Below, piece after piece: positions 33,550 to 45,456 of a stretch of 45,456 nt of DNA. Origin of the DNA: an uncultured Nitrospiraceae bacterium (GTDB lineage Bacteria; Nitrospirota; Thermodesulfovibrionia; Thermodesulfovibrionales; Thermodesulfovibrionaceae); assembly GCA_937139565.1 (NCBI GenBank), contig CAKZQH010000005.1, positions 1-45,456 of the forward strand. The letters run 5' to 3'. Under the pieces are notes generated by a model. It searched no databases and had not been told where the DNA came from. It saw only the letters and a list, made by a program, of their open reading frames with translations. How positions within the stretch are numbered: position 1 is the stretch's first letter; every line of letters starts with the position of its first letter. A program made the position numbers and the translations under genes.

Positions 33550-34536
33550 TCAATAAGACGAAAGTTTTGTTAACTGTCCAGCATACACAATAGCTGCTCT
33601 TAAAATAAGTGTTCCAGTAAGAACTAAAATGGCTGCAAAATTCATACGAAATATCTGGTGTTTTGTAAATTCTCCGTGAACTTCTCCTTCAAATTCTTTA
33701 AGTTCGCCTAGTTTTATTCTGAGGGCAAGAGGCAATAGAAGGAAAATAGCAATAAGAGCCATTGAAAAGATAAAGTGTTCACTGGTCAAGGAAAAGAATG
33801 GTTCTATTGCCTTTTTATAAGGTGCTGTAGAGGTGTAAAGTCCATAGAAGAAAAGCAAAATAACTACCAGTTCTGCAACAATGAGCCAAATATCAATTTT
33901 CGTGAAAAGAAATTTTATCTCTGGTTTGTGCGCAATTATAACAATCATAGCAGCACCTGAAGAAAGAGCCGATACAAGAAAAAGTATTGGAAGTGTTGCA
34001 TTATTCCAAAGCGGTATTGCTGAAAAAGAACTCAAAAGAACTCCGGTGTAAATGCCAAGAAAAATACCGAGTGCAAAATTTATCTTTGCTATAGTCCTCA
34101 TTTTTGAAGCAGCCCACTGAGCTACTTTAACGAAAAAGGCAAATTTTAATAAATTACGCTTATCTGGCGGAATAACAGCAAACATGTAAAATACATTTCC
34201 AAGAAGAACCGCTGCTACTCCCCAGGCACCCCATGACATAAGTGAAAGAGGCTGAAAGGTAAGAAATAGCCAGAAAGAATTAAAAGGTCTACCTAGATCA
34301 AGAAGAATAAATGGAGCACCAATTGCAAGAGAAACAAAAGCAATAAAAGGAGCTTTAAAACATTGAGCTAACTCTTCAACTGGCTGTTTTGGTATCCTAA
34401 GATTAGCAATAGAACACATAACAAGAGTTCCAGCTGATAGGCCACCAAGGAAAAGATATACAACGATTCTCCAATCCCAAACTTCAAGATAGGGAAAAGT
34501 TATTGCATTTGTTCCAGTTATACTTATCTCTATCAT
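33550..34536 (-). CDS. NrfD/PsrC-type quinone-linked membrane subunit
   Basis: This 328-residue membrane anchor of a molybdenum sulfur-compound reductase exchanges electrons with the quinone pool. About 8-9 helices are visible. The family start WDWRIVVYLFLGGLSAGTLVMC and the second region APFILLDLGRPFNSFWLF are characteristic of NrfD/PsrC, with the Asp/Arg pair near the quinone site. I choose the ATG at 34536, which shares one base with the ferredoxin stop (TGATG) and is spaced properly from GGAGG. An in-frame GTG one codon upstream is possible. Confidence 0.9.
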   Translation of the reverse strand: MIEISITGTNAITFPYLEVWDWRIVVYLFLGGLSAGTLVMCSIANLRIPKQPVEELAQCFKAPFIAFVSLAIGAPFILLDLGRPFNSFWLFLTFQPLSLMSWGAWGVAAVLLGNVFYMFAVIPPDKRNLLKFAFFVKVAQWAASKMRTIAKINFALGIFLGIYTGVLLSSFSAIPLWNNATLPILFLVSALSSGAAMIVIIAHKPEIKFLFTKIDIWLIVAELVVILLFFYGLYTSTAPYKKAIEPFFSLTSEHFIFSMALIAIFLLLPLALRIKLGELKEFEGEVHGEFTKHQIFRMNFAAILVLTGTLILRAAIVYAGQLTKLSSY

Positions 34537-35093
34537 CACATACCTCCTGCAAATTTCTTTTTAATGTAAAAAACCCGTGGCCTTGTTCCTGCAAACTCTA
34601 ATCTCACTGAAGCGTCATATTTTTTAATGAGCTCTGACACTTCACTTTTTGGATCTTCTAAATCACCGAATATTCTTGATTTACCAAGGCAAGTCTCTAC
34701 ACATGCTGGAGTCTTTCCCTCTTTGAGTCTATGATCACAAAAAGAGCATTTATCAGCATATCCATCTGGATGAGAATATCTCGCATCATAAGGACATGCA
34801 AGAATACAAGCCTTGCAACCAATGCACTTTACTTTATCTATTTGGACGGTGCCATCCTTTGCTCGATAGGAGGCTCTTGTTGGACAGGCATCTATGCATG
34901 GTGCATACTCACAATGATTACAAAGCTCAGACCTTAGCTCCATGCGAAGATGAGGAAATTCGCCCCTAACCTCCTCCACTACACGAGTTCGATAGTGTTC
35001 AGGCGGAACATTGTTTTCCTTTTTACAAGCAATAACGCATGCCATACAACCGATACATTTTTCCACATCTATTACCATTACATATTTGGGCAT
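34536..35093 (-). CDS. Four-cluster ferredoxin subunit (PsrB/PhsB type)
   Basis: This 185-residue electron-transfer subunit carries four cysteine groups: CIGCMACVIACKKEN, CNHCEYAPCIDACPT, CIGCKACILACPYD, and CSFCDHRLKEGKTPACVETC. Together they bind four [4Fe-4S] clusters, as in PsrB, PhsB, NrfC and DmsB. It carries electrons between the molybdopterin subunit encoded just upstream (2-base gap) and the NrfD anchor encoded downstream (overlap). It has no signal peptide, as usual; it would be co-exported with the Tat-bearing large subunit. Confidence 0.93.
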   Translation of the reverse strand: MPKYVMVIDVEKCIGCMACVIACKKENNVPPEHYRTRVVEEVRGEFPHLRMELRSELCNHCEYAPCIDACPTRASYRAKDGTVQIDKVKCIGCKACILACPYDARYSHPDGYADKCSFCDHRLKEGKTPACVETCLGKSRIFGDLEDPKSEVSELIKKYDASVRLEFAGTRPRVFYIKKKFAGGM

Positions 35094-35095
35094 AT

Positions 35096-37285
35096 TTATA
35101 CCTCCTTGCTAACCTTTACAAAGTTCACCCTCATTCCAACACTTCCAGATATAGGATCTATTGCATACTTTGATATAAGCTGCTGATCATCTGCTCCCCT
35201 TAGATAGGCCTTTTTAAGAAGCTTCGATGTTGAACCAAAACCGTGAACTATATATATACAATCTGACCTTATTCTTTCTGTTACTTTTGCTCTAACTTTA
35301 TTGCTTTTTATTCCATCCTGATTAATAAGAACCACATAGTCACCATTTTTTATCCCGATTCTTTTTGCGACCCTTGCATTTATCCATGCAACATTTTCTT
35401 CCATAAGTTCCCAAAGGGAGGGATTATTTGTTGTTCTTGAAAAAGTATGAACCTGTGCTCTTCCGTAGATTAGTCTAAACCATCCCTCAGGCGGCTGTTC
35501 ATGTTTGGTGTATTTAGGCACAGGGTCGAAACCATGCTCTTTTAATTCTTTGCTTACAAGCTCTATTTTTCCAGAAGGAGTTTTAAATTTAAAGTCCTCT
35601 CCGGGTAAAATGTAAGGCTTTTCAGATTCAGGGAAGTTTATATATCCATTTTTTGAGAGCTCACTATAGTTAATTCCCCAAATTTCAGCCTTTTTCTTTA
35701 GAAATTCCTCAAAGGTATTCCACGGAAAATATTTCTCAAGCCCGAGTTTTTTACCCAATTCTTTTGCAATCCACCAGCCTGGTTTTGTATCATACATGGG
35801 CTGAACAACAGGCTGTCTAATAGAAATTCCTAAAGCTCTCTCTTTCACCACAAAAAAATCATCATGTCTCTCTAAATAAGTGCTCTCTGGTAGAACCACA
35901 TCTGCTAGCATCACTCCATCATAGGGCATCATATCTACTGCTACAAGAAGGTCTAGTTTCTGAATTGCCTGAAGGGTCTCTTTTTGATTTGGCATAGCTT
36001 TCATTATGTTACATCCTGTGATAAACCAACCCTTAATAGGATATGGCTGCTCAGTTATGGTTGACTTTACGATTGCATGGGTTATACCTTCATCCCCGGC
36101 AAAAGGATAGTTCCCCTTATTCAGCTCAGGTTTATGGTCAGGATAATCTTCATCTGAGAGGAAAACTGGTTCAAGTTTTTTCTTAGGATTCAGATATATT
36201 CCACCTGGCCTTCCATAAGCTCCAAGAAGTGCTGTTAGAATTGCCACTGCTCTTTGTCTTTGTACATTGTCAGAATACCATGCAGTATGCCTTCCTGGAT
36301 GAATAAGCACATGAGGTTTATTTTTTCCTAAAACCCTCCCGGTCTCCACAATTAGAGATGCAGGAATATCTGTCTCTCTCTCAGCCCACTCAGGTGTATA
36401 GTCCTTAACTGCTTGCATGAGCTCACTAAATCCGGAGGTGTATTTTGCTACATATTCTTTATCGTAAAGCCCTTCACTGATTATTAAATTAATCCAGGCA
36501 AGAAGAATAGCAAGGTCTGTAGCTGGTCTGATCGGCAACCAATATTTTGCTTTTCCAGCAGCAGTGGAAAATCTTGGATCAAGCACAATCAAAGTAGCAC
36601 CCTTTCCTACAGCTTCAGCAAATTCCTGACACTGAGAGTTGTGAGCATTTTCTCCTAAATGACTGCCAATTAATACAACAGCCTTACTGTTTTGAAGATC
36701 AAGTCTTTCCGGATTTCCCACATCCTCACCAAAAGTAAGCTCAAAAGCAACTCCCCGTGCACCACGACAAAGAGCAAAAGAGGGCATGGCAAAATTTGGT
36801 GAGCCATAGGCTTGAAGCAGATGCATAAAATAGGTCGAAATTGTTCCATGAGTAAGAAGTGCCATGGATTCTGCACCATATTTTTCCTTGATCTTTACCA
36901 TTTTCTCAGCTACATATCCCAGGGCTTCATCCCATGATGCTTTCTTAAACTTTGCTTCTCCCCGAGAACCTGTGTTAATTAAAGGTGTTTTCAATCTGTC
37001 AGGATCATACAATAGACCTATTCCTCCGTGACCTCTTGCACATAGTTTACCCCTTGAGTTAGGATGAATAGGGTTACCTTCAAGCTTTACAACCTTGCCG
37101 TCAATTACTTTTGCAATTACTCCACATCGCCAGAAGCACATTTCACAGGTCGTAGGAATATACTGAGGAAGTGGCGCTGGTTTCTTACCTAAGGCTAAAA
37201 CAGATTTCACTGCAGGGGTTCCTACTGCAACAGCTCCACCCGTTACAGCTGCAATTTTTAAGAAATCTCTTCGGGTAATATTCAT
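35096..37285 (-). CDS. Molybdopterin oxidoreductase catalytic subunit (polysulfide/thiosulfate reductase type)
   Basis: This 729-residue enzyme of the DMSO reductase superfamily has a Tat signal at about 1-31 (ITRRDFLKIAAVTGGAVAVG). The [4Fe-4S] ligands are in CEMCFWRCGVIAKV with the fourth Cys in GKLCARGHGG. The molybdenum-ligand Cys is seen in FALCRGARGVAF, the PsrA/PhsA pattern. Later guanine-dinucleotide contacts include GSHLGENAHNSQ, LIHPGRHTAWYS and GCNIMKAMPN. A final Asp-rich barrel follows. Size matches PhsA/PsrA. Likely substrates are polysulfide, thiosulfate or tetrathionate; sequence alone does not separate them. First gene of a three- or four-gene operon, preceded by AAGGGGGTGAGG. 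Confidence 0.88.
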   Translation of the reverse strand: MNITRRDFLKIAAVTGGAVAVGTPAVKSVLALGKKPAPLPQYIPTTCEMCFWRCGVIAKVIDGKVVKLEGNPIHPNSRGKLCARGHGGIGLLYDPDRLKTPLINTGSRGEAKFKKASWDEALGYVAEKMVKIKEKYGAESMALLTHGTISTYFMHLLQAYGSPNFAMPSFALCRGARGVAFELTFGEDVGNPERLDLQNSKAVVLIGSHLGENAHNSQCQEFAEAVGKGATLIVLDPRFSTAAGKAKYWLPIRPATDLAILLAWINLIISEGLYDKEYVAKYTSGFSELMQAVKDYTPEWAERETDIPASLIVETGRVLGKNKPHVLIHPGRHTAWYSDNVQRQRAVAILTALLGAYGRPGGIYLNPKKKLEPVFLSDEDYPDHKPELNKGNYPFAGDEGITHAIVKSTITEQPYPIKGWFITGCNIMKAMPNQKETLQAIQKLDLLVAVDMMPYDGVMLADVVLPESTYLERHDDFFVVKERALGISIRQPVVQPMYDTKPGWWIAKELGKKLGLEKYFPWNTFEEFLKKKAEIWGINYSELSKNGYINFPESEKPYILPGEDFKFKTPSGKIELVSKELKEHGFDPVPKYTKHEQPPEGWFRLIYGRAQVHTFSRTTNNPSLWELMEENVAWINARVAKRIGIKNGDYVVLINQDGIKSNKVRAKVTERIRSDCIYIVHGFGSTSKLLKKAYLRGADDQQLISKYAIDPISGSVGMRVNFVKVSKEV

Positions 37286-38894: not shown

Positions 38895-40004
38895 TTAAAT
38901 GTCTTTCATGGGTTTTATGAACTTAAAATAAACCATAGTCCAATTGCCAAGTATAATAAATATTGTAGCAACAAAGCTTGAAATAGCTCCGGTGGAGGCA
39001 CCTGTAAGTCCATGTCCCACATTACATCCACCACCGATGGCTGCACCAATACCCATGATGAACCCACCGAAAAGGGAAGTTAGAAGGTCATTTATAGGAG
39101 GAACTTTCCATTTAAATTCCTTAAGTAGTTTTGCACTTATATATGCACCAATTGGAACTCCAGCCACATAAAAAGCAGACCAAGTTGATGTAAAAACTCC
39201 AAAGAAATCAAACTGCGCTCTTGGACTCATCGAGTTACCTGTAAGCAGACTCAGAAAAAACTCCTTTGTTGGTCCAGTAAAGGATAGTCCACGAGGATCA
39301 CCTCCAAAATATCCAGATGCCCACCATGCAAGAATGGCTACAATTCCAGTTAAAACACCCACCGTTGACCAGTAAAATCCCTTACCAGGTGCTTTTCCAA
39401 AGGGCTTTCCTTTAAGAACATAAATAATAAATACCGCACAGATTATGCAGATGATTATCCATTTTATCTCTTGAGAACCGCCAAAGATGTCCCAAAGTGA
39501 AGGATTTACCTTTCCGTTAATCTCTAACTTAATGCCCCTTAAGAATTCATATACAGGTTTAAGCCAGCCATGCATTGTAGCAGAAATCCCTATGAAAAAG
39601 CCGAAGACCGCCACAATAGCTGCGAATACGCCCTCTCCTATCCTAAATAGAATACCGCTTCCGCATCCACCTGCAAGAACAATTCCAAGTCCAAAAAGGT
39701 ATCCGCCAAGGATATTTGCCACAGGAGCAAAAGTCTGTCTTGACAATTCCGTAGCTACAAGCTCTCCTGATTCCTCATCAAATCCAAATATTAATCCCAT
39801 ATCCTCGAGAAGATTAGCACCTATCATGGTTATTGCAAGGGCTAACAAATAAGCTCTAAATAGTGAGACTTCCTGTATCCACATCACATCCCTGAAACAG
39901 GTGTTCATGCAGAATCTTCCTCTTTGAAGAACAAAACCAAAAATAATACCTACAACCAGTGAACTGAATATTGTTATGACACTTCCGGCTGGCAAAGTTT
40001 CCAT
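38895..40004 (-). CDS. YeeE/YedE (TsuA)-family thiosulfate/sulfur transporter
   Basis: This 369-residue membrane protein is the two-repeat form of the YeeE/YedE family, known to move thiosulfate by relaying it along conserved cysteines. Three such regions are seen: RGRFCMNTCFRDVMW near residue 30, LAGGCGSGILFRIGEG near 112, and IGGGCNVGHGLTGASTG near 325. About ten helices are predicted. It follows a TusA-like gene by 21 bases and ends a five-gene sulfur relay operon. Imported or exported sulfane sulfur would be passed to or from TusA (established pairing; direction is inferred). Confidence 0.9.
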   Translation of the reverse strand: METLPAGSVITIFSSLVVGIIFGFVLQRGRFCMNTCFRDVMWIQEVSLFRAYLLALAITMIGANLLEDMGLIFGFDEESGELVATELSRQTFAPVANILGGYLFGLGIVLAGGCGSGILFRIGEGVFAAIVAVFGFFIGISATMHGWLKPVYEFLRGIKLEINGKVNPSLWDIFGGSQEIKWIIICIICAVFIIYVLKGKPFGKAPGKGFYWSTVGVLTGIVAILAWWASGYFGGDPRGLSFTGPTKEFFLSLLTGNSMSPRAQFDFFGVFTSTWSAFYVAGVPIGAYISAKLLKEFKWKVPPINDLLTSLFGGFIMGIGAAIGGGCNVGHGLTGASTGAISSFVATIFIILGNWTMVYFKFIKPMKDI

Positions 40005-40025
40005 AAATTCCTCCTCAAAAAGATT

Positions 40026-40274
40026 TTACTTCTTCTGGATATACACCTCCCACTGGCCTTTGTCTTCTAGCTTAACTACCTCGTATTCGTATCCGTATTT
40101 TTGAGCCAATTTTGGAATAGCATCTTCTGCAGAAGCAACTGAATCAGTAACAATCTTAAGAATAGCCCCGGAAGGTAGTTTTTCGAGTGACTTTTTTGTT
40201 AACACCTGCGGATATGGACATACCCTTCCCAAAACATCTAAAACCTCTGTTGGTTTTTGATCTTTTAATGCCAT
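40026..40274 (-). CDS. tusA: TusA/SirA-family sulfur carrier
   Basis: This 82-residue soluble protein has the TusA fold and the CPxP motif (VCPYPQVLTKKSLEKLPSG) whose first Cys carries persulfide sulfur. The C-terminal strand (GYEYEVVKLEDKGQWEVYIQKK) is normal. It lies between a DsrF/TusC-like gene (17 bases upstream) and the YedE-type transporter gene, which places it as the shuttle between the membrane transporter and the DsrEFH-like complex. A GAGGGG site precedes the ATG. Confidence 0.92.
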   Translation of the reverse strand: MALKDQKPTEVLDVLGRVCPYPQVLTKKSLEKLPSGAILKIVTDSVASAEDAIPKLAQKYGYEYEVVKLEDKGQWEVYIQKK

Positions 40275-40291
40275 TTTACCCCTCCTCTTTT

Positions 40292-40708
40292 TTAAAAATA
40301 GAGCAGATGATCTGCTCTTTTAATTATTTCTTTTATCTCGTCCTTAGATACAATTTTTATAGACTTTTCTGCTCCAATATCTTCGGCATTCACTATTCTT
40401 TCAGGTAAAACTCCAAATTTTTCTATACTTTCTTTACAAACATAAATATCCATTTCAACTAAAAGAGCATTTTTTAAATGTGTTTCCACACTCGTTAGTT
40501 CATAATGCTCCATACTTTTATGATTTTTTATACAATTTAACACTCCCTCATCAACAAAAATTAAAGAAGGCGTTATTGTTTGATTATCCTCAAGCAGAAC
40601 TTCTACTGTTTGATAAGAAAGAGCATGGGTTATAGCAAGCCTTGATGTTTCAGACTTGTAGGGCAACTTAGTTACAATAAAAGCTAATTTAACATCACCG
40701 GTTTTCAT
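40292..40708 (-). CDS. DsrE/DsrF-like protein (TusC-type subunit)
   Basis: This 138-residue soluble protein is of the DsrE/F-like fold (KLAFIVTKLPYKSETSRLAITHALSYQTVEVLL, later LVEMDIYVCKESIEKFGVL). It has the position and pattern of DsrF/TusC, the subunit that usually lacks the catalytic cysteine; the Cys in YVCKES is at the site where DsrE-type proteins carry one, so activity is possible. The chosen ATG shares a base with the stop of the preceding DsrE-like gene (TGATG). A GTG one codon earlier is the alternative. Confidence 0.78.
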   Translation of the reverse strand: MKTGDVKLAFIVTKLPYKSETSRLAITHALSYQTVEVLLEDNQTITPSLIFVDEGVLNCIKNHKSMEHYELTSVETHLKNALLVEMDIYVCKESIEKFGVLPERIVNAEDIGAEKSIKIVSKDEIKEIIKRADHLLYF

Positions 40709-41067
40709 CACTCTCCTCCTATAAGCAAGACTCTGTCAGCCTCGTAAATCTTACTAAGAAACCAATGCATTGCACTCCATTTAGCACCCTCAATAACATC
40801 CTCCTTCATAATGCCACGAGCATAAGCGCAGGATTCACAAACGCATATTTCAACACCATTACTTATTAGTTCTCTCAAATGTTTTTCTCCATGAGAGTAA
40901 TCTTTAAGAATTTTTTGACCCTTTTTAATTGATGAAGAGCCATTTCCTGAAAACCATATGCTTACTCGGTGTCCTTTCCTTTGGGCCGCTTTCGACAGTC
41001 TTAATAAAAAATCATAATTCATAGACCCTGTCAAAGAAGCAAAACAACCTATGGTAAGATATCCCAT
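40708..41067 (-). CDS. DsrE/TusD-like sulfurtransferase subunit
   Basis: This 119-residue protein has the DsrE fold (YLTIGCFASLTGSMNYDFLLRLSKAAQRKGHRVSIWF). The catalytic-cysteine region ICVCESCAYARGI corresponds to the sulfur-accepting Cys of TusD/DsrE followed by the ARG turn; the extra Cys residues form a CxCxxC cluster that is richer than usual. The ATG at 41067 has AGGGAGG 5 bases upstream; a GTG two codons earlier overlaps that site. It is the second gene of the operon, 10 bases after the DsrH-like gene. Confidence 0.82.
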   Translation of the reverse strand: MGYLTIGCFASLTGSMNYDFLLRLSKAAQRKGHRVSIWFSGNGSSSIKKGQKILKDYSHGEKHLRELISNGVEICVCESCAYARGIMKEDVIEGAKWSAMHWFLSKIYEADRVLLIGGE

Positions 41068-41077
41068 ACCCACCTCC

Positions 41078-41377
41078 CTATTGTAGCCACATTAATTTTT
41101 CATATTCATAAAAAATTAAATCTACAAGATCATCGTATGTGACTGGTTTTACTTTCGGATTAATACAATCCGTCTCGCATCCCCTGGTCTCAAGATCCTC
41201 AAGAAGAACATAAAAATCACCTTTTTGCTGAAGAATAGGAGAATCTTGGTAATTCTCTTTGAGCACTGCATGATATACGCCGTTACCCACAAGAATAAAC
41301 CCTAATTTTTCAGCAGGAATATACTCTAGAGGATTAAGGTTACATCTGTACTCACTTACAAAAACTGCAACTTTCAT
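41078..41377 (-). CDS. DsrH/TusB-like protein
   Basis: This 99-residue protein resembles DsrH/TusB, the third subunit of the hexameric sulfur-transfer complex. The typical middle YVLLEDLETRGC is followed by the closing VTYDDLVDLIFYEYEKLMWL. Three cysteines (RC near the start, RGCETDC) are present. It is the first gene of dsrH-dsrE-dsrF-tusA-yedE, a gene order unlike the usual dsrEFH/tusDCB order. A GGGGGG-type site and a good promoter lie upstream. Together with TusA this makes a full cytoplasmic sulfur relay. Confidence 0.78.
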   Translation of the reverse strand: MKVAVFVSEYRCNLNPLEYIPAEKLGFILVGNGVYHAVLKENYQDSPILQQKGDFYVLLEDLETRGCETDCINPKVKPVTYDDLVDLIFYEYEKLMWLQ

Positions 41378-41530: not shown

Positions 41531-43423
41531 TCAAAGCTCCTCCATTTTATGTAGAACAACACCTCTCAATGTTTTAAACTCTGTCTTTTCGGACTCTGTC
41601 CTTATTTTTCTATCAAGCTCATTTAATCTTGAAAGGTTTTTCTTAAATATTCTCTCGTATTTCTTATATTTTTTCTCATCAACTCTTATACTGAAATCAC
41701 CAGGAACAAACCATTTGTCTTTTAAATAAATCCACGAGGCAAAATCAGATATTTCAAAGCCATTCAAAACATTGATTTTTTCGTGCCAGAAATCTACAAT
41801 CCTCAATCCGTTCTTGTCCCCTATAATCTTGTAACCTCCCTCAAATGGCTCTGCACCCTGTGTATCTTCATATTTCCATCTAGAATGAGTTATCTGTGCA
41901 CTTCTGTGACAGCTTTTGCAGTCCCTTGCCTTTCCGAGAGGATGAGATACCTCCTCTATCTGAAGCCACAGCAAATGTTTGTTTGCCGATGGCAGCCCAT
42001 CAAAGGTTCCTAAGATGGCATACATATCCCTCGTCTCCCCATCGGGCCATCTAAATTTTATACCAGTAGGACTCAAATCTTTACCAAAATTACCAAGAAT
42101 GTGAGGAAAAATTTTAACTGGAAACCATATACCTCTTTGATCTTTCATGAGAAAAAGGGGTTTTTGCATGCCATAATAGAGGGAGTATTTTTTGAAAAGT
42201 GTCCTTTTTTCTCCAATATAGCCCTTACCCCAAACTGTTATCTGATATCCTCCTGCCTCAGAAACATGACAGGCTGTGCAAGTGAGATTTTTATGAATCG
42301 ACTGAGCATGAGCTTTTTCAATGTCCACATGACAGTCTCCACAGGTGGCTTTTCTTTTCATGTCTCCCATTCCTTTTCGTCCAGTTGGATGACACTCCAC
42401 GCAATGAATTCCCTTTTTAAAATGAATATCAGGCTCCCTTCCTTGAGGTATTGAATAAAATTTGCCTATATATGTCTCTCCCCTTCTTGAATGACCTGAA
42501 CCTGTATGACAAACAGAATTTCCCCTTCCTCTGCCCATGCAACTATAGGAATCAGGGACTTTTATGAATTTGTGGGAACTTTGTTTACTCGGTGCATAGT
42601 GACAGTCAAGACATCCTGCATGACATACATTGCAGAGTCTTTGTTTTCGCATGGCATCGTCATCCGTAAACCCCGTGTTCATCTCCTTTCTAATCTTCTC
42701 AGTATTAGCAAAATCGAATCCTGCTTCCTTCAGAATCTCCGATGGTGGAATGTCAGCAAAGGATGGACCGCAGTTGTGTGGTCCATAAGGTTCAAGCCAT
42801 GTTCGCATGGTGCGCTGACGGAAATTAACTCCCATGATCGTAGTCTGAAATTGTTTAAGCTCTTCTGAATGACATCCTCTTTTGCCACAAGTTTTTTTAG
42901 CAATTTCTGGGTCAAAATTAAAACTCTGAGGGTTTCTATCATGCCAAAGGATGTTTCTTACTTTATGATGGAGTACAATTTCATCATCAATCCTTTCCTT
43001 TGGAAGAATTTCAAATAACTCATTCTCTCCTAAAGGTGTAATCCTATTTAAAACACTTTCCTCTTTGCTATAAATTTTCGTTCTCTCAGCGAAGTCTGCA
43101 TCTTCAGTTACAAATATCGGTTTCAGCATACCTTTATGGGCTTTATCCTTATCATTGACTCTTCCATTTCCAAGATGGCAGTCTCTGCAAAAAACAGTTT
43201 TATGTCCAGATTGAGCTCTTACCTCTTCAAGGGTTACATGAAACTGAGGATATCCAAATTCTTTCATCTTATCTTCGGAGCCATGGCAGTTAATACAACT
43301 ATCTGATGAATCCATGTAATATTCATATCCAAAATAACCAATAAATAAAGCAAACTGTAAGATAAATAGGAAAACTGTAAGAGGTTTTGCAAGACTACTT
43401 ATAGATCCTAGTTTGAAGGACAT
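41531..43423 (-). CDS. Membrane-anchored multiheme cytochrome c (8 CXXCH plus variant sites)
   Basis: This 630-residue protein has an N-terminal membrane anchor (about 13-33) and a large extracytoplasmic part. Eight CXXCH haem sites are seen, starting at C43, C79, C264, C271, C341, C361, C382 and C502. A CX4CH site lies at C179 (CGKRGCH), and VCH306 with a Cys at 295 is a possible wider site. I do not recognise the family beyond general multiheme electron-transfer or reductase proteins of sulfur/nitrogen respiration. The long haem-poor C-terminal stretch (about 390-630) is unusual. Its ATG lies 5 bases from a TATAAT on its strand, without a ribosome site, and 49 bases downstream of the selenoprotein rhodanese gene. 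Confidence 0.85.
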   Translation of the reverse strand: MSFKLGSISSLAKPLTVFLFILQFALFIGYFGYEYYMDSSDSCINCHGSEDKMKEFGYPQFHVTLEEVRAQSGHKTVFCRDCHLGNGRVNDKDKAHKGMLKPIFVTEDADFAERTKIYSKEESVLNRITPLGENELFEILPKERIDDEIVLHHKVRNILWHDRNPQSFNFDPEIAKKTCGKRGCHSEELKQFQTTIMGVNFRQRTMRTWLEPYGPHNCGPSFADIPPSEILKEAGFDFANTEKIRKEMNTGFTDDDAMRKQRLCNVCHAGCLDCHYAPSKQSSHKFIKVPDSYSCMGRGRGNSVCHTGSGHSRRGETYIGKFYSIPQGREPDIHFKKGIHCVECHPTGRKGMGDMKRKATCGDCHVDIEKAHAQSIHKNLTCTACHVSEAGGYQITVWGKGYIGEKRTLFKKYSLYYGMQKPLFLMKDQRGIWFPVKIFPHILGNFGKDLSPTGIKFRWPDGETRDMYAILGTFDGLPSANKHLLWLQIEEVSHPLGKARDCKSCHRSAQITHSRWKYEDTQGAEPFEGGYKIIGDKNGLRIVDFWHEKINVLNGFEISDFASWIYLKDKWFVPGDFSIRVDEKKYKKYERIFKKNLSRLNELDRKIRTESEKTEFKTLRGVVLHKMEEL

Positions 43424-43472: not shown

Positions 43473-44825
43473 TTAATTCTCAGTTATCGTATATTTGCCG
43501 CCTTTTTTAATCTTAATGGTTGCATCAAGAAATCTTGCTTTATAACCAGCATCCTTAAGAATATTGTAAGCCATTTCTGCTCTCATTCCTGTAGCACAAT
43601 GAACAATAATTTCCTTATCTTTTGGTAGCTCATTAAGCCTATCCTTCAACTCATTTACAGGAATGTTAATCGCACCCTTGATAACACCCATCTGTGTCTC
43701 TTCAGGATCTCTTACATCAAGAATTATCATATTCTGAGGAATTTTTCCCGTTACTTTTTTGAACTCTTCTGTTCCTATTGCACCTATTTTTGGTTTTGGA
43801 ACATAGTTTATTTTTGCAACAAGTTTATCTGAAACAACCTCTGCACCTGCTTTTTTCCAAGCATCAATTCCACCAACAAGATATGAAGTGTTTATATATC
43901 CCCACTTTCTTACAATATCGAACGCTTTAATTGAAACACTGTCATCAGAAGAATAAATGATTATAGGAGCATTTTGCTGTTTTGGAAATTCCTTCTTTGC
44001 TTTTGCAAGCTTATCAATAGGGATATTAACAGCACCTTTAATATGCTCTTTTTTTGCTTCATCCTGGGGTCTTACATCAATAAGCACATGGGATATATCT
44101 TTGCTCTGAAGTTCCTGAATGTACTTAACTGTGGAAGCAACAGGATAGCCTTTTTTCTTCCACTCGGGTATGCCATCTACAAACTGCTTTACATTTGTGT
44201 AGCCAAGTGCTTCTGCCCTACGAGCAGATGATGGAGTAAGAGCTCAAGTAGGGCCTTGACAATAATAGACTATAAGAGTATTTTTATCCTGCGGGAGTTT
44301 ATCGATATATTTATCAAACTCAGCAAACCATATGTGAAGTGAGCCTGGAATATGTCCTTCATTGTACCTTCCAGCAGGCCTACAATCAATAATAACTCCC
44401 TTCTTTTCATCGAAAATCTTCTTCATTTCTTCTACTTTTACAATCTTTGCAGGATCAACCTTTACAGGAGGCTTGACATTTACACTAGTGGCATAAAGCT
44501 CTCCGTCTTTTTCAACAACTGCAACATATACTTCTTTTTCCTTGGGAATTTTGTTAATTGGCTGATTCCAGTTGATAAGCTTTGTGTTATCATCAAATTT
44601 CACAGTCCATAAGGCTCCTGTATCAACCTGTAGCATTTGCGCCTTAGCTGAGACTGTCTTAAGACTTCCTCTCAGCTCTCCTTCTTTAGCAGTATGACAA
44701 CCAGGAAGGGAACAGCCCTTTGCTATAATTGGCTTCTGCTGAGAGATACCCTGAGAGGCTAAAAAAGCAAGAGAAAGAAGAAAAATAAAAACCACGAAAA
44801 ACCTTTGTTTTCGAAGTTTTTTCAT
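43473..44825 (-). CDS. Exported triple-rhodanese selenoprotein (in-frame TGA read as selenocysteine)
   Basis: Read through one TGA (44246-44244), this is a 450-residue protein. The signal peptide covers about 1-29. CSLPGCH (C38-H44) is a CX4CH haem-type site. A small beta segment precedes rhodanese domain 1 (about 125-230), which holds VYYCQGPT-U-ALTPSSARRA: C189 and Sec194 both lie in the active-site loop. Domain 2 (about 235-330) has Ser292 in IIYSSDD where the Cys should be, so it is probably inactive. Domain 3 (about 350-435) has a normal Cys410 (IVHCATGMRAEMA). Coding is intact for 52 codons from the TGA to a chance internal GTG and on to 43473. The ATG at 44825 is preceded by AGGGAGG; a GTG two codons earlier lies on that site. 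Alternative: a nonsense mutation in a cysteine codon. Confidence 0.85.
44212..44246 (-). promoter_or_regulatory. Bacterial SECIS-like hairpin directing selenocysteine insertion
   Basis: After the TGA (44246-44244) come 15 bases, then UCUGCUC (44228-44222), loop GUA (44221-44219) and GGGCAGA (44218-44212): a 7-bp stem with one G-U pair. The apical G is the 23rd base after the UGA. Bacterial SECIS elements are known to have a short stem-loop within roughly 16-37 bases of the UGA with a G at the start of the loop, which this matches. Confidence 0.7.
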
Positions 44826-44879: not shown

Positions 44880-45256
44880 GCACGCATTTCCTCAAAAATA
44901 ATCTCTTCGAAAAAGGATTGTTTCCTTACAATTGACAAAATAAGGCAATCATCTTATAAAACCCATCATTCAAACATTCCAATCTTCTCTCAGAAGGTTA
45001 TCAAGATGATTACCGTTATACCCAACCTTCATCACTAGGAACTTAAAAAACCACTGTAAATCAATGAGTTATCATCTACAAATTAGTTTATATGCCTTCT
45101 AAGCGATTTTTAAACCATCCAATTTTTCCTCTAACTGTCTATATTTTCCTCCTGCCTTGTTATCTCATTTGCGAAACTGATCATCTCTCTTCGCTTCGCT
45201 CTCTTCTTGCAATTAGAGCCTCTCTCCCTTTCTTTCATTGCAAGCCCCATTCTTCT
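44880..45256. other. Gene-free region upstream of the rhodanese gene
   Basis: No supported gene. Besides the inverted repeat copy at 45023-45061 I see AT-rich, stop-rich sequence that may be the rest of a decayed mobile element, since a minus-strand segment near 45065-45130 reads as broken coding (RQLEEKLDGLKIA before a stop). Confidence 0.4.
45023..45061 (-). repeat. Interspersed repeat copy, inverted relative to positions 81-115
   Basis: The minus strand here matches positions 81-115 of the plus strand at 35 aligned bases with two substitutions-class differences and two single-base insertions (shared core ATTTACAGTGG, AAGTTC, TAGTGATGAAG). This is too close for chance and marks a repeated element near both ends of the window. 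Confidence 0.6.
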
Positions 45257-45456
45257 GTCATTGCGAGGAGCGCAAGCGACGAAGGGATCTTGCCTTTGCG
45301 TCATTGCGAGCAAAGCGAAGCAATCTCGTCTCTCCTCTCTTCTGTCATTGCGAGCCTCCTTTTCCGTCATTGCGAGCGTAAGCGAAGCAATCTCGTCTCT
45401 CCTCTCTTCTGTCATTGCGAGCGCCAGCGAAGCAATCTCGTCGTTCCTCCTACTTG
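45257..45456. repeat. Tandem cluster of a GC-richer short interspersed repeat
   Basis: Five copies beginning GTCATTGCGAG start at 45257, 45300, 45344, 45366 and 45411; the fuller ones contain GCGAAGCAATCTCGTC. Copies at 45300 (44 bases) and 45366 (45 bases) are nearly identical, the one at 45344 is cut to 22 bases, and the last runs to the window end. ATTGC and GCAAT arms make each an imperfect inverted repeat. A decayed half copy lies near 45233. Base composition is clearly different from the surroundings. Repeats of this ATTGCGAGC...GCAATC kind are widespread in several phyla. Confidence 0.8.

Follow-up and report, generated by a model that had tools for sequence, protein, structure and literature searches.

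The periplasmic protein Sud of Wolinella succinogenes is a rhodanese-type transferase that feeds polysulfide sulfur to Psr, and its single-domain subunits carry one Cys and neither Sec nor haem. It serves here as the model for the proposed working mode of a predicted selenoprotein encoded by a Nitrospiraceae bacterium, which differs from Sud by its three rhodanese domains, its Sec and a haem-like motif. Several rhodanese domains per chain, as in the selenoprotein, are also found in YnjE (2wlr, 3ipo) and 1yt8, in which we know of no haem motif or Sec; the whole-chain TM-scores obtained with Foldseek were low (0.2-0.3), the agreement being at domain level only.

In Desulfurivibrio dismutans, the available part of the report describes a Psr operon that is strongly upregulated in sulfur disproportionation and that includes a secreted three-rhodanese sulfurtransferase, RS06465 (PMC12142623). 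Compared by description only, RS06465 resembles the selenoprotein in its three rhodanese domains, its export and its encoding together with Psr, but it differs in being a predicted lipoprotein, and the description in that part of the report mentions neither Sec nor haem (PMC12142623). ExtH, a rhodanese encoded beside a porin and multihaem cytochromes in the Geobacter selenite/tellurite operon (PMC5877670), has approximately 49 kDa and resembles the selenoprotein in its context. The ExtH model NF040901 (cut-off 200) matched neither the selenoprotein at an E-value of 0.01 nor any part of its genome, and membership in ExtH was therefore rejected.

Rhodanese-like selenoproteins are already known, and a list of the prokaryotic selenoproteome includes forms 1 to 5 (PMC13188914). 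The UxxS motif of form 1 (WP_010941598.1) fits the U-x-[LM]-S of most relatives of the protein described here, whereas the CxU motif of form 3 differs in spacing from C189-x4-U194, and a triple-domain, haem-motif protein with CxxxxU is absent from the list (PMC13188914). Form 1, compared by motif alone, may be a relative of the selenoprotein or even the same family, in which case the latter would be a new member whose context had not been described before. TsoB, a rhodanese/DsbD-fusion-like selenoprotein, has a UxxxxU of the same spacing as C189-x4-U194 and a rhodanese part to which domain 1 of the selenoprotein aligns, but it is a DsbD-like fusion with two Sec. The TsoB model (NF045694) gave 88.7 bits on the rhodanese part only, below its cut-off of 805, and the rhodanese_LYCAU (seleno)protein model (NF041203) gave 94.6 bits over three stretches, below its cut-off of 115; no NCBIfam cut-off was reached by the selenoprotein. 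The literature search found no paper joining rhodanese, selenocysteine and Nitrospirota, none joining rhodanese, multiheme cytochrome and Geothrix, and no description of a haem-motif triple-rhodanese selenoprotein. What would be new, as set apart from the listed forms by their descriptions, is the triple-rhodanese protein with a haem-like motif and CxxxxU.

The in-frame TGA codon and its hairpin

The window, i.e., the whole stretch of 45,456 nucleotides that was analysed, carries the following features:

43473..44825, minus strand: selenoprotein coding sequence of 450 amino acids (ATG 44825-44823, TAA 43475-43473, TGA read through)
44754..44825, minus strand: N-terminal signal-like sequence, hydrophobic helix at residues ~3-24 (sequence and AF2 helix 3-23)
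44694..44714, minus strand: predicted haem-c-like motif CSLPGCH, residues 38-44 (motif reading)
44475..44678, minus strand: small beta-rich domain, residues ~50-117 (AF2 model; without Pfam match)
44139..44435, minus strand: rhodanese domain 1, residues ~131-229, loop C189-QGPT-U194 (Pfam, alignment, AF2)
44244..44246, minus strand: TGA codon of the predicted Sec194 (same-column TGA in relatives)
44212..44228, minus strand: SECIS hairpin, 7-bp stem at +16 to +22 and +26 to +32 after the TGA (fold, conservation, covariation)
43818..44117, minus strand: rhodanese domain 2, residues ~237-336, without active-site Cys (IYSSDDS; sequence, alignment)
43509..43775, minus strand: rhodanese domain 3, residues ~351-439, canonical loop C410-ATGMR (sequence, alignment, AF2)
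41531..43423, minus strand: multihaem cytochrome c with eight CxxCH and one longer-spaced motif, downstream, ~50 bp after the selenoprotein gene
38895..41377, minus strand: YTD-type cluster of DsrH-, DsrE- and DsrF-like genes, TusA (40026-40274) and a YedE/TsuA-like transporter
33550..37285, minus strand: PsrABC/PhsABC-like molybdo-oxidoreductase (A 35096-37285, B 34536-35093, C 33550-34539)

The first-pass annotation of this DNA had joined two apparent genes into one triple-rhodanese frame across a single TGA, and this reading was confirmed. When TGA is translated as U, the minus strand from 44825 to 43473 gives 450 codons, of which only codon 194 is an in-frame TGA, and the frame continues beyond it for 256 codons before the TAA, while gene calling with table 11 splits the gene into the frames 44831-44244 and 44087-43473. 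PF00581 matched three rhodanese stretches with 182 bits (gathering cut-off 22.2), and the AF2 model, based on an alignment of 30 window and locus sequences, reached a mean pLDDT of 88.9. The signal-like N-terminus, which is kept among relatives, was assigned by visual inspection of the sequence together with the AF2 helix 3-23. The product is predicted to be exported, its three rhodanese domains being preceded by a single haem-c-like motif and a small beta domain.

At the position for which Sec had been proposed, the relatives have Sec or Cys with few exceptions, rather than unrelated residues, and this includes a clade without the 189 Cys. Among 152 distinct relatives, a count that predates the extra Sec forms from the order of the Geobacter-type locus L126, the loop is Cys..Sec with TGA at codon 194 in 88 and Cys..Cys in 47, the rest being one Sec..Sec, five with a shorter CVGGC-type loop, nine without Cys189 (eight of which retain the second Cys), one with Asp and one unclassed. 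In an order-wide scan of 149 genomes, nearly all long matches, from tens of genomes, had exactly one TGA, in the U194 column, the exceptions being L022, L024, L044 and L068, with TGT or TGC in that column. The scan of named genomes found the TGA form in Thermodesulfovibrio, including strain N1 (L112), as well as in other Nitrospirota, in Desulfopila and Desulfosediminicola and in a single record titled Deltaproteobacteria, and the Cys form in Geothrix and other Holophagaceae, Geobacter-type records and Betaproteobacteria; further Sec forms came from the order of Desulfopila (Desulfobulbales) and from that of L126. The relatives are many and belong to sulfur- and metal-breathing bacteria, and eight Sec/Cys changes were counted on a quick tree, at least six of them by well-supported branches. 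This widespread family swaps Sec and Cys repeatedly at a single position of the loop, and its genes often share operons with Psr-like and multihaem partners; its natural Sec/Cys pairs at a defined residue of a defined protein constitute test material. Since the Sec forms are broken up or shortened by standard gene calling, the family is likely mis-annotated in many genomes.

A 7-bp hairpin with an apical G at +23 after the TGA, another element of the first-pass annotation, is indeed present and covaries among relatives. It belongs to the minimum-energy fold of its stretch and has the apical loop GUA, with G at +23, but its z-score against shuffles was -0.32, so that the hairpin of this one sequence alone is unconvincing. 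What raises the reading above chance is the conserved TGA column together with the hairpin covariation. In 64 distinct Sec genes, the stem formed on average 6.34 of seven pairs (minimum 5) and G+23 was found in 62, whereas the same columns in 40 Cys genes formed on average 3.35 of seven pairs, with G+23 in 10. Additionally, compensatory changes on both sides were seen in five of the seven stem pairs (34 cells versus 1-14 for slid stems), and stem pairing was 90.6% as against 44-51% for slid stems. The hairpin is kept in Sec genes and decayed in Cys genes, a contrast that sets the RNA constraint apart from the protein constraint.

The machinery for Sec, whose presence the first-pass annotation had left to be searched, was entirely recovered: the genome that encodes the selenoprotein (1.99 Mb, 99.97% complete) contains selA, selB, selD and a tRNA-Sec (selC) with anticodon UCA, and in its selD the tenth codon of the matched stretch is an in-frame UGA. 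Elsewhere, selB was found in all 25 further Sec-form genomes versus 5 of 16 plain Cys-form genomes. No selB match was obtained in G113, a 95% complete MAG with a Sec-form gene, nor in the Cys-form genomes G095, which retains selA, and G118 (72% complete), both within the genus. The selenoprotein's genome also encodes a long-arm tRNA-Cys with anticodon GCA (L009 1501-1590; G000:C21:68818-68907, minus strand), which passes the Rfam tRNA-Sec cut-off and resembles a selC*-type tRNA-Cys, a type described for Nitrospirae (PMC7609411).

Two other readings of the TGA have to be weighed against this evidence. The codon could terminate translation in the ordinary way or stem from a sequencing error or a pseudogene mutation, so that there would be two genes or one broken gene, as the two open frames of table 11 and a hairpin that folds no better than shuffles in this single sequence would allow. 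Nevertheless, dozens of genomes from several phyla, each assembled separately, share this single TGA at the same codon, coding is conserved on both sides of it, the hairpin covaries and the codon alternates with Cys. Recurrence of the TGA across phyla excludes the sequencing error (TGC or TGT misread as TGA) that the first-pass annotation had considered, and this whole reading can be regarded as already refuted by conservation. It would also be conceivable that UGA is decoded as another amino acid, e.g., Cys by a selC*-type tRNA-Cys, given the score of the long-arm tRNA-Cys on the tRNA-Sec model and the selC* tRNA-Cys with UCA anticodon described in Desulfobacterales (PMC7609411). However, the selC*-like tRNA of this genome has the anticodon GCA, by which it was ruled out as the decoder of UGA 194, while a separate UCA tRNA-Sec, SelA, SelB and SelD are present and the SECIS-like hairpin has been lost from Cys genes but retained in Sec genes, making such decoding highly improbable. 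Translation of UGA 194 as Sec, under the SECIS hairpin and by the cell's own SelABCD, is almost certainly the correct reading, and the product would be a Sec-containing protein.

The Sec loop and the haem-like motif

The Sec of rhodanese domain 1 lies in the loop YYCQGPT-U-ALTPSSA, and the first-pass annotation had suggested that it may be the true sulfur-accepting residue, taking its spacing to match that of the catalytic Cys of classic rhodaneses. In the profile alignment to the solved rhodanese 6mxv, C189 falls on the canonical Cys and residue 194 within a two-residue insertion. In the AF2 model, C189 directly follows the strand 185-188, as C410 follows the strand 405-409 in domain 3, and the helices begin at 196 and 414, respectively. 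Both lines of evidence place C189 in the classical catalytic position and Sec194 at the end of an enlarged loop, at least as modelled, and the assignment of Sec194 to the canonical position by spacing alone was not supported. On the other hand, a Desulfobulbales clade with the loop YGVGGC (L180-L185, L187, L189) has lost the Cys at 189 and kept the second Cys, and residue 194 may therefore still be the key one. A Cys-x4-Sec selenenylsulfide pair formed by C189 and Sec194 would be chemically sensible. As a separate observation, L185/L226, a member of the YGVGGC clade, was found near PsrB/PsrA-like genes.

As for the haem that the first-pass annotation had held possible, a haem-c-like motif was found, at which a haem may be attached. 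The selenoprotein has C38-SLPG-C43-H44, i.e., CX4CH, which is the form of this genus and for which attachment is less certain, whereas nearly all close relatives outside the genus have CxxCH at the N-terminus and one distant clade is devoid of the motif. The members of the family are probably exported, haem-bearing rhodaneses.

Gene neighbourhood and proposed role

The selenoprotein gene is followed downstream by genes for the multihaem cytochrome, the DsrH-, DsrE- and DsrF-like proteins, TusA, the YedE/TsuA-like transporter, a Rieske protein and cytochrome b, and the PsrABC-like enzyme. Flanked by the rhodanese-cytochrome pair on one side and by the Rieske/Psr genes on the other, the DsrEFH-like, TusA and YedE/TsuA-like genes resemble the YTD cluster, which was described for sulfur disproportionators and proposed as a marker of disproportionation (PMC9751629, PMC13047784). 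These genes were not beside the selenoprotein gene in the other genus members read. The rhodanese-cytochrome pair is conserved in Thermodesulfovibrio, with a gap of ~50 bp in most cases, and the same pair occurs at the Sec loci L265, L266, L269 and L271 of the Geobacter-type order, in another phylum, with gaps of 93-121 bp and a cytochrome identity of 31-32%. In L126, L138, L233, L235-L237, L247, L250, L254, L255 and L257, a PsrA homologue follows downstream of the Cys homologue at a distance of 85-204 bp, and in L148 and L168 the Cys homologue precedes another multihaem cytochrome and then PsrA. Within the flanks read, Psr genes were missing from many relatives, including most of those in Desulfobulbales and many loci of Nitrospirota and Geothrix, and the Psr partnership is thus not universal. 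These conclusions rest on direct tblastn matches to named genes, a clustering of all neighbouring ORFs having been set aside due to the many spurious ORFs in the GC-rich Geothrix loci.

The closest counterpart of the nearby PsrA is Thermus 2vpw (756 bits), which the PDB file calls a thiosulfate reductase and which we take to be a polysulfide reductase, and the nearby enzyme scored 561 against the PhsA cut-off of 694, i.e., below it. By similarity, its substrate would be polysulfide or thiosulfate. The overall best explanation, to which we assign a probability of roughly 0.6, is that the Sec triple-rhodanese is a Sud-like sulfane-sulfur carrier working with these partners. The selenoprotein would then be a periplasmic Sud-type carrier or reductase of sulfane sulfur (polysulfide or thiosulfate) serving the neighbouring Psr/Phs-like molybdoenzyme and the multihaem cytochrome. 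Domain 1 would take up sulfane sulfur as a persulfide or selenylsulfide, and the C189-Sec194 pair would form a selenenylsulfide bond and in this way release the sulfur or hand it over. Electron exchange would involve the haem motif, as an electron path, and the partner cytochrome, and Sec would accelerate the thiol/persulfide chemistry. The cellular location, the partners and the Sec are here read from sequence, whereas we infer sulfur carrying, electron transfer and direction. The gene neighbourhood supports a Sud-like transfer of polysulfide sulfur to Psr, the Psr operon of D. dismutans with its triple-rhodanese gene offers an independent parallel, and a role in respiratory sulfane-sulfur metabolism with these partners, presumably in the context of polysulfide/thiosulfate respiration or disproportionation, is slightly favoured. 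Direct electron exchange between the Cys-Sec pair and a haem is a tentative idea, on the unlikely side. Similarly doubtful is a sulfur transferase with a direct connection to the respiratory chain, in which the Cys-Sec loop and a c-type haem on one chain would carry sulfane sulfur and move electrons. If this were true, one protein would both move electrons to or from the multihaem cytochrome and carry sulfur, and we know of no rhodanese in which sulfur carrying and haem electron transfer are combined on one chain.

Two further functions compete with the Sud-like carrier. In a periplasmic thiol/selenol redox protein (a disulfide reductase or antioxidant), Sec194 and C189 would act as a redox pair only and no sulfur would be carried, which would suit the CxxxxU pair, the haem motif, the cytochrome partner and the disappearance of the canonical Cys 189 in some Desulfobulbales. 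Such a function is unlikely, considering that domain 3 keeps the canonical rhodanese Cys loop and that genomic links to polysulfide-reductase-like genes are found. Reduction or detoxification of selenite, tellurite or another metalloid, as in the Ext system of Geobacter, in place of respiratory sulfur carrying, is less likely still: although the context of ExtH is similar, Cys homologues also have a DUF3373 porin-like gene and multihaem cytochromes in their vicinity, and the neighbouring cytochrome has weak similarity to ExtN/ExtO, the ExtH model matched neither the selenoprotein nor its genome, and the selenoprotein gene is surrounded here by sulfur genes of Psr-, DsrEFH-, TusA- and YedE-like type.

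Contig-end repeats and other rhodanese candidates

At the contig end, upstream of the selenoprotein gene, the window contains repeated CATTGCGAGC-type motifs (45220-45440), which also yield a 94-amino-acid ORF that is probably spurious. Among the loci, L065 (1971-2876) encodes a relative with two loop TGA codons (FYUGGYHUAF), with the UxxxxU spacing of TsoB, and its frame breaks further down. In L069-L078 and L272-L276, exported one-domain rhodaneses combine a C-x4-U loop with a SECIS-like stem. Finally, a further type of rhodanese selenoprotein may be represented by L079-L082: ~1000 bases into these loci, a small exported rhodanese of one domain has its TGA at the canonical catalytic position itself (VVIUMFDKRSPLA).
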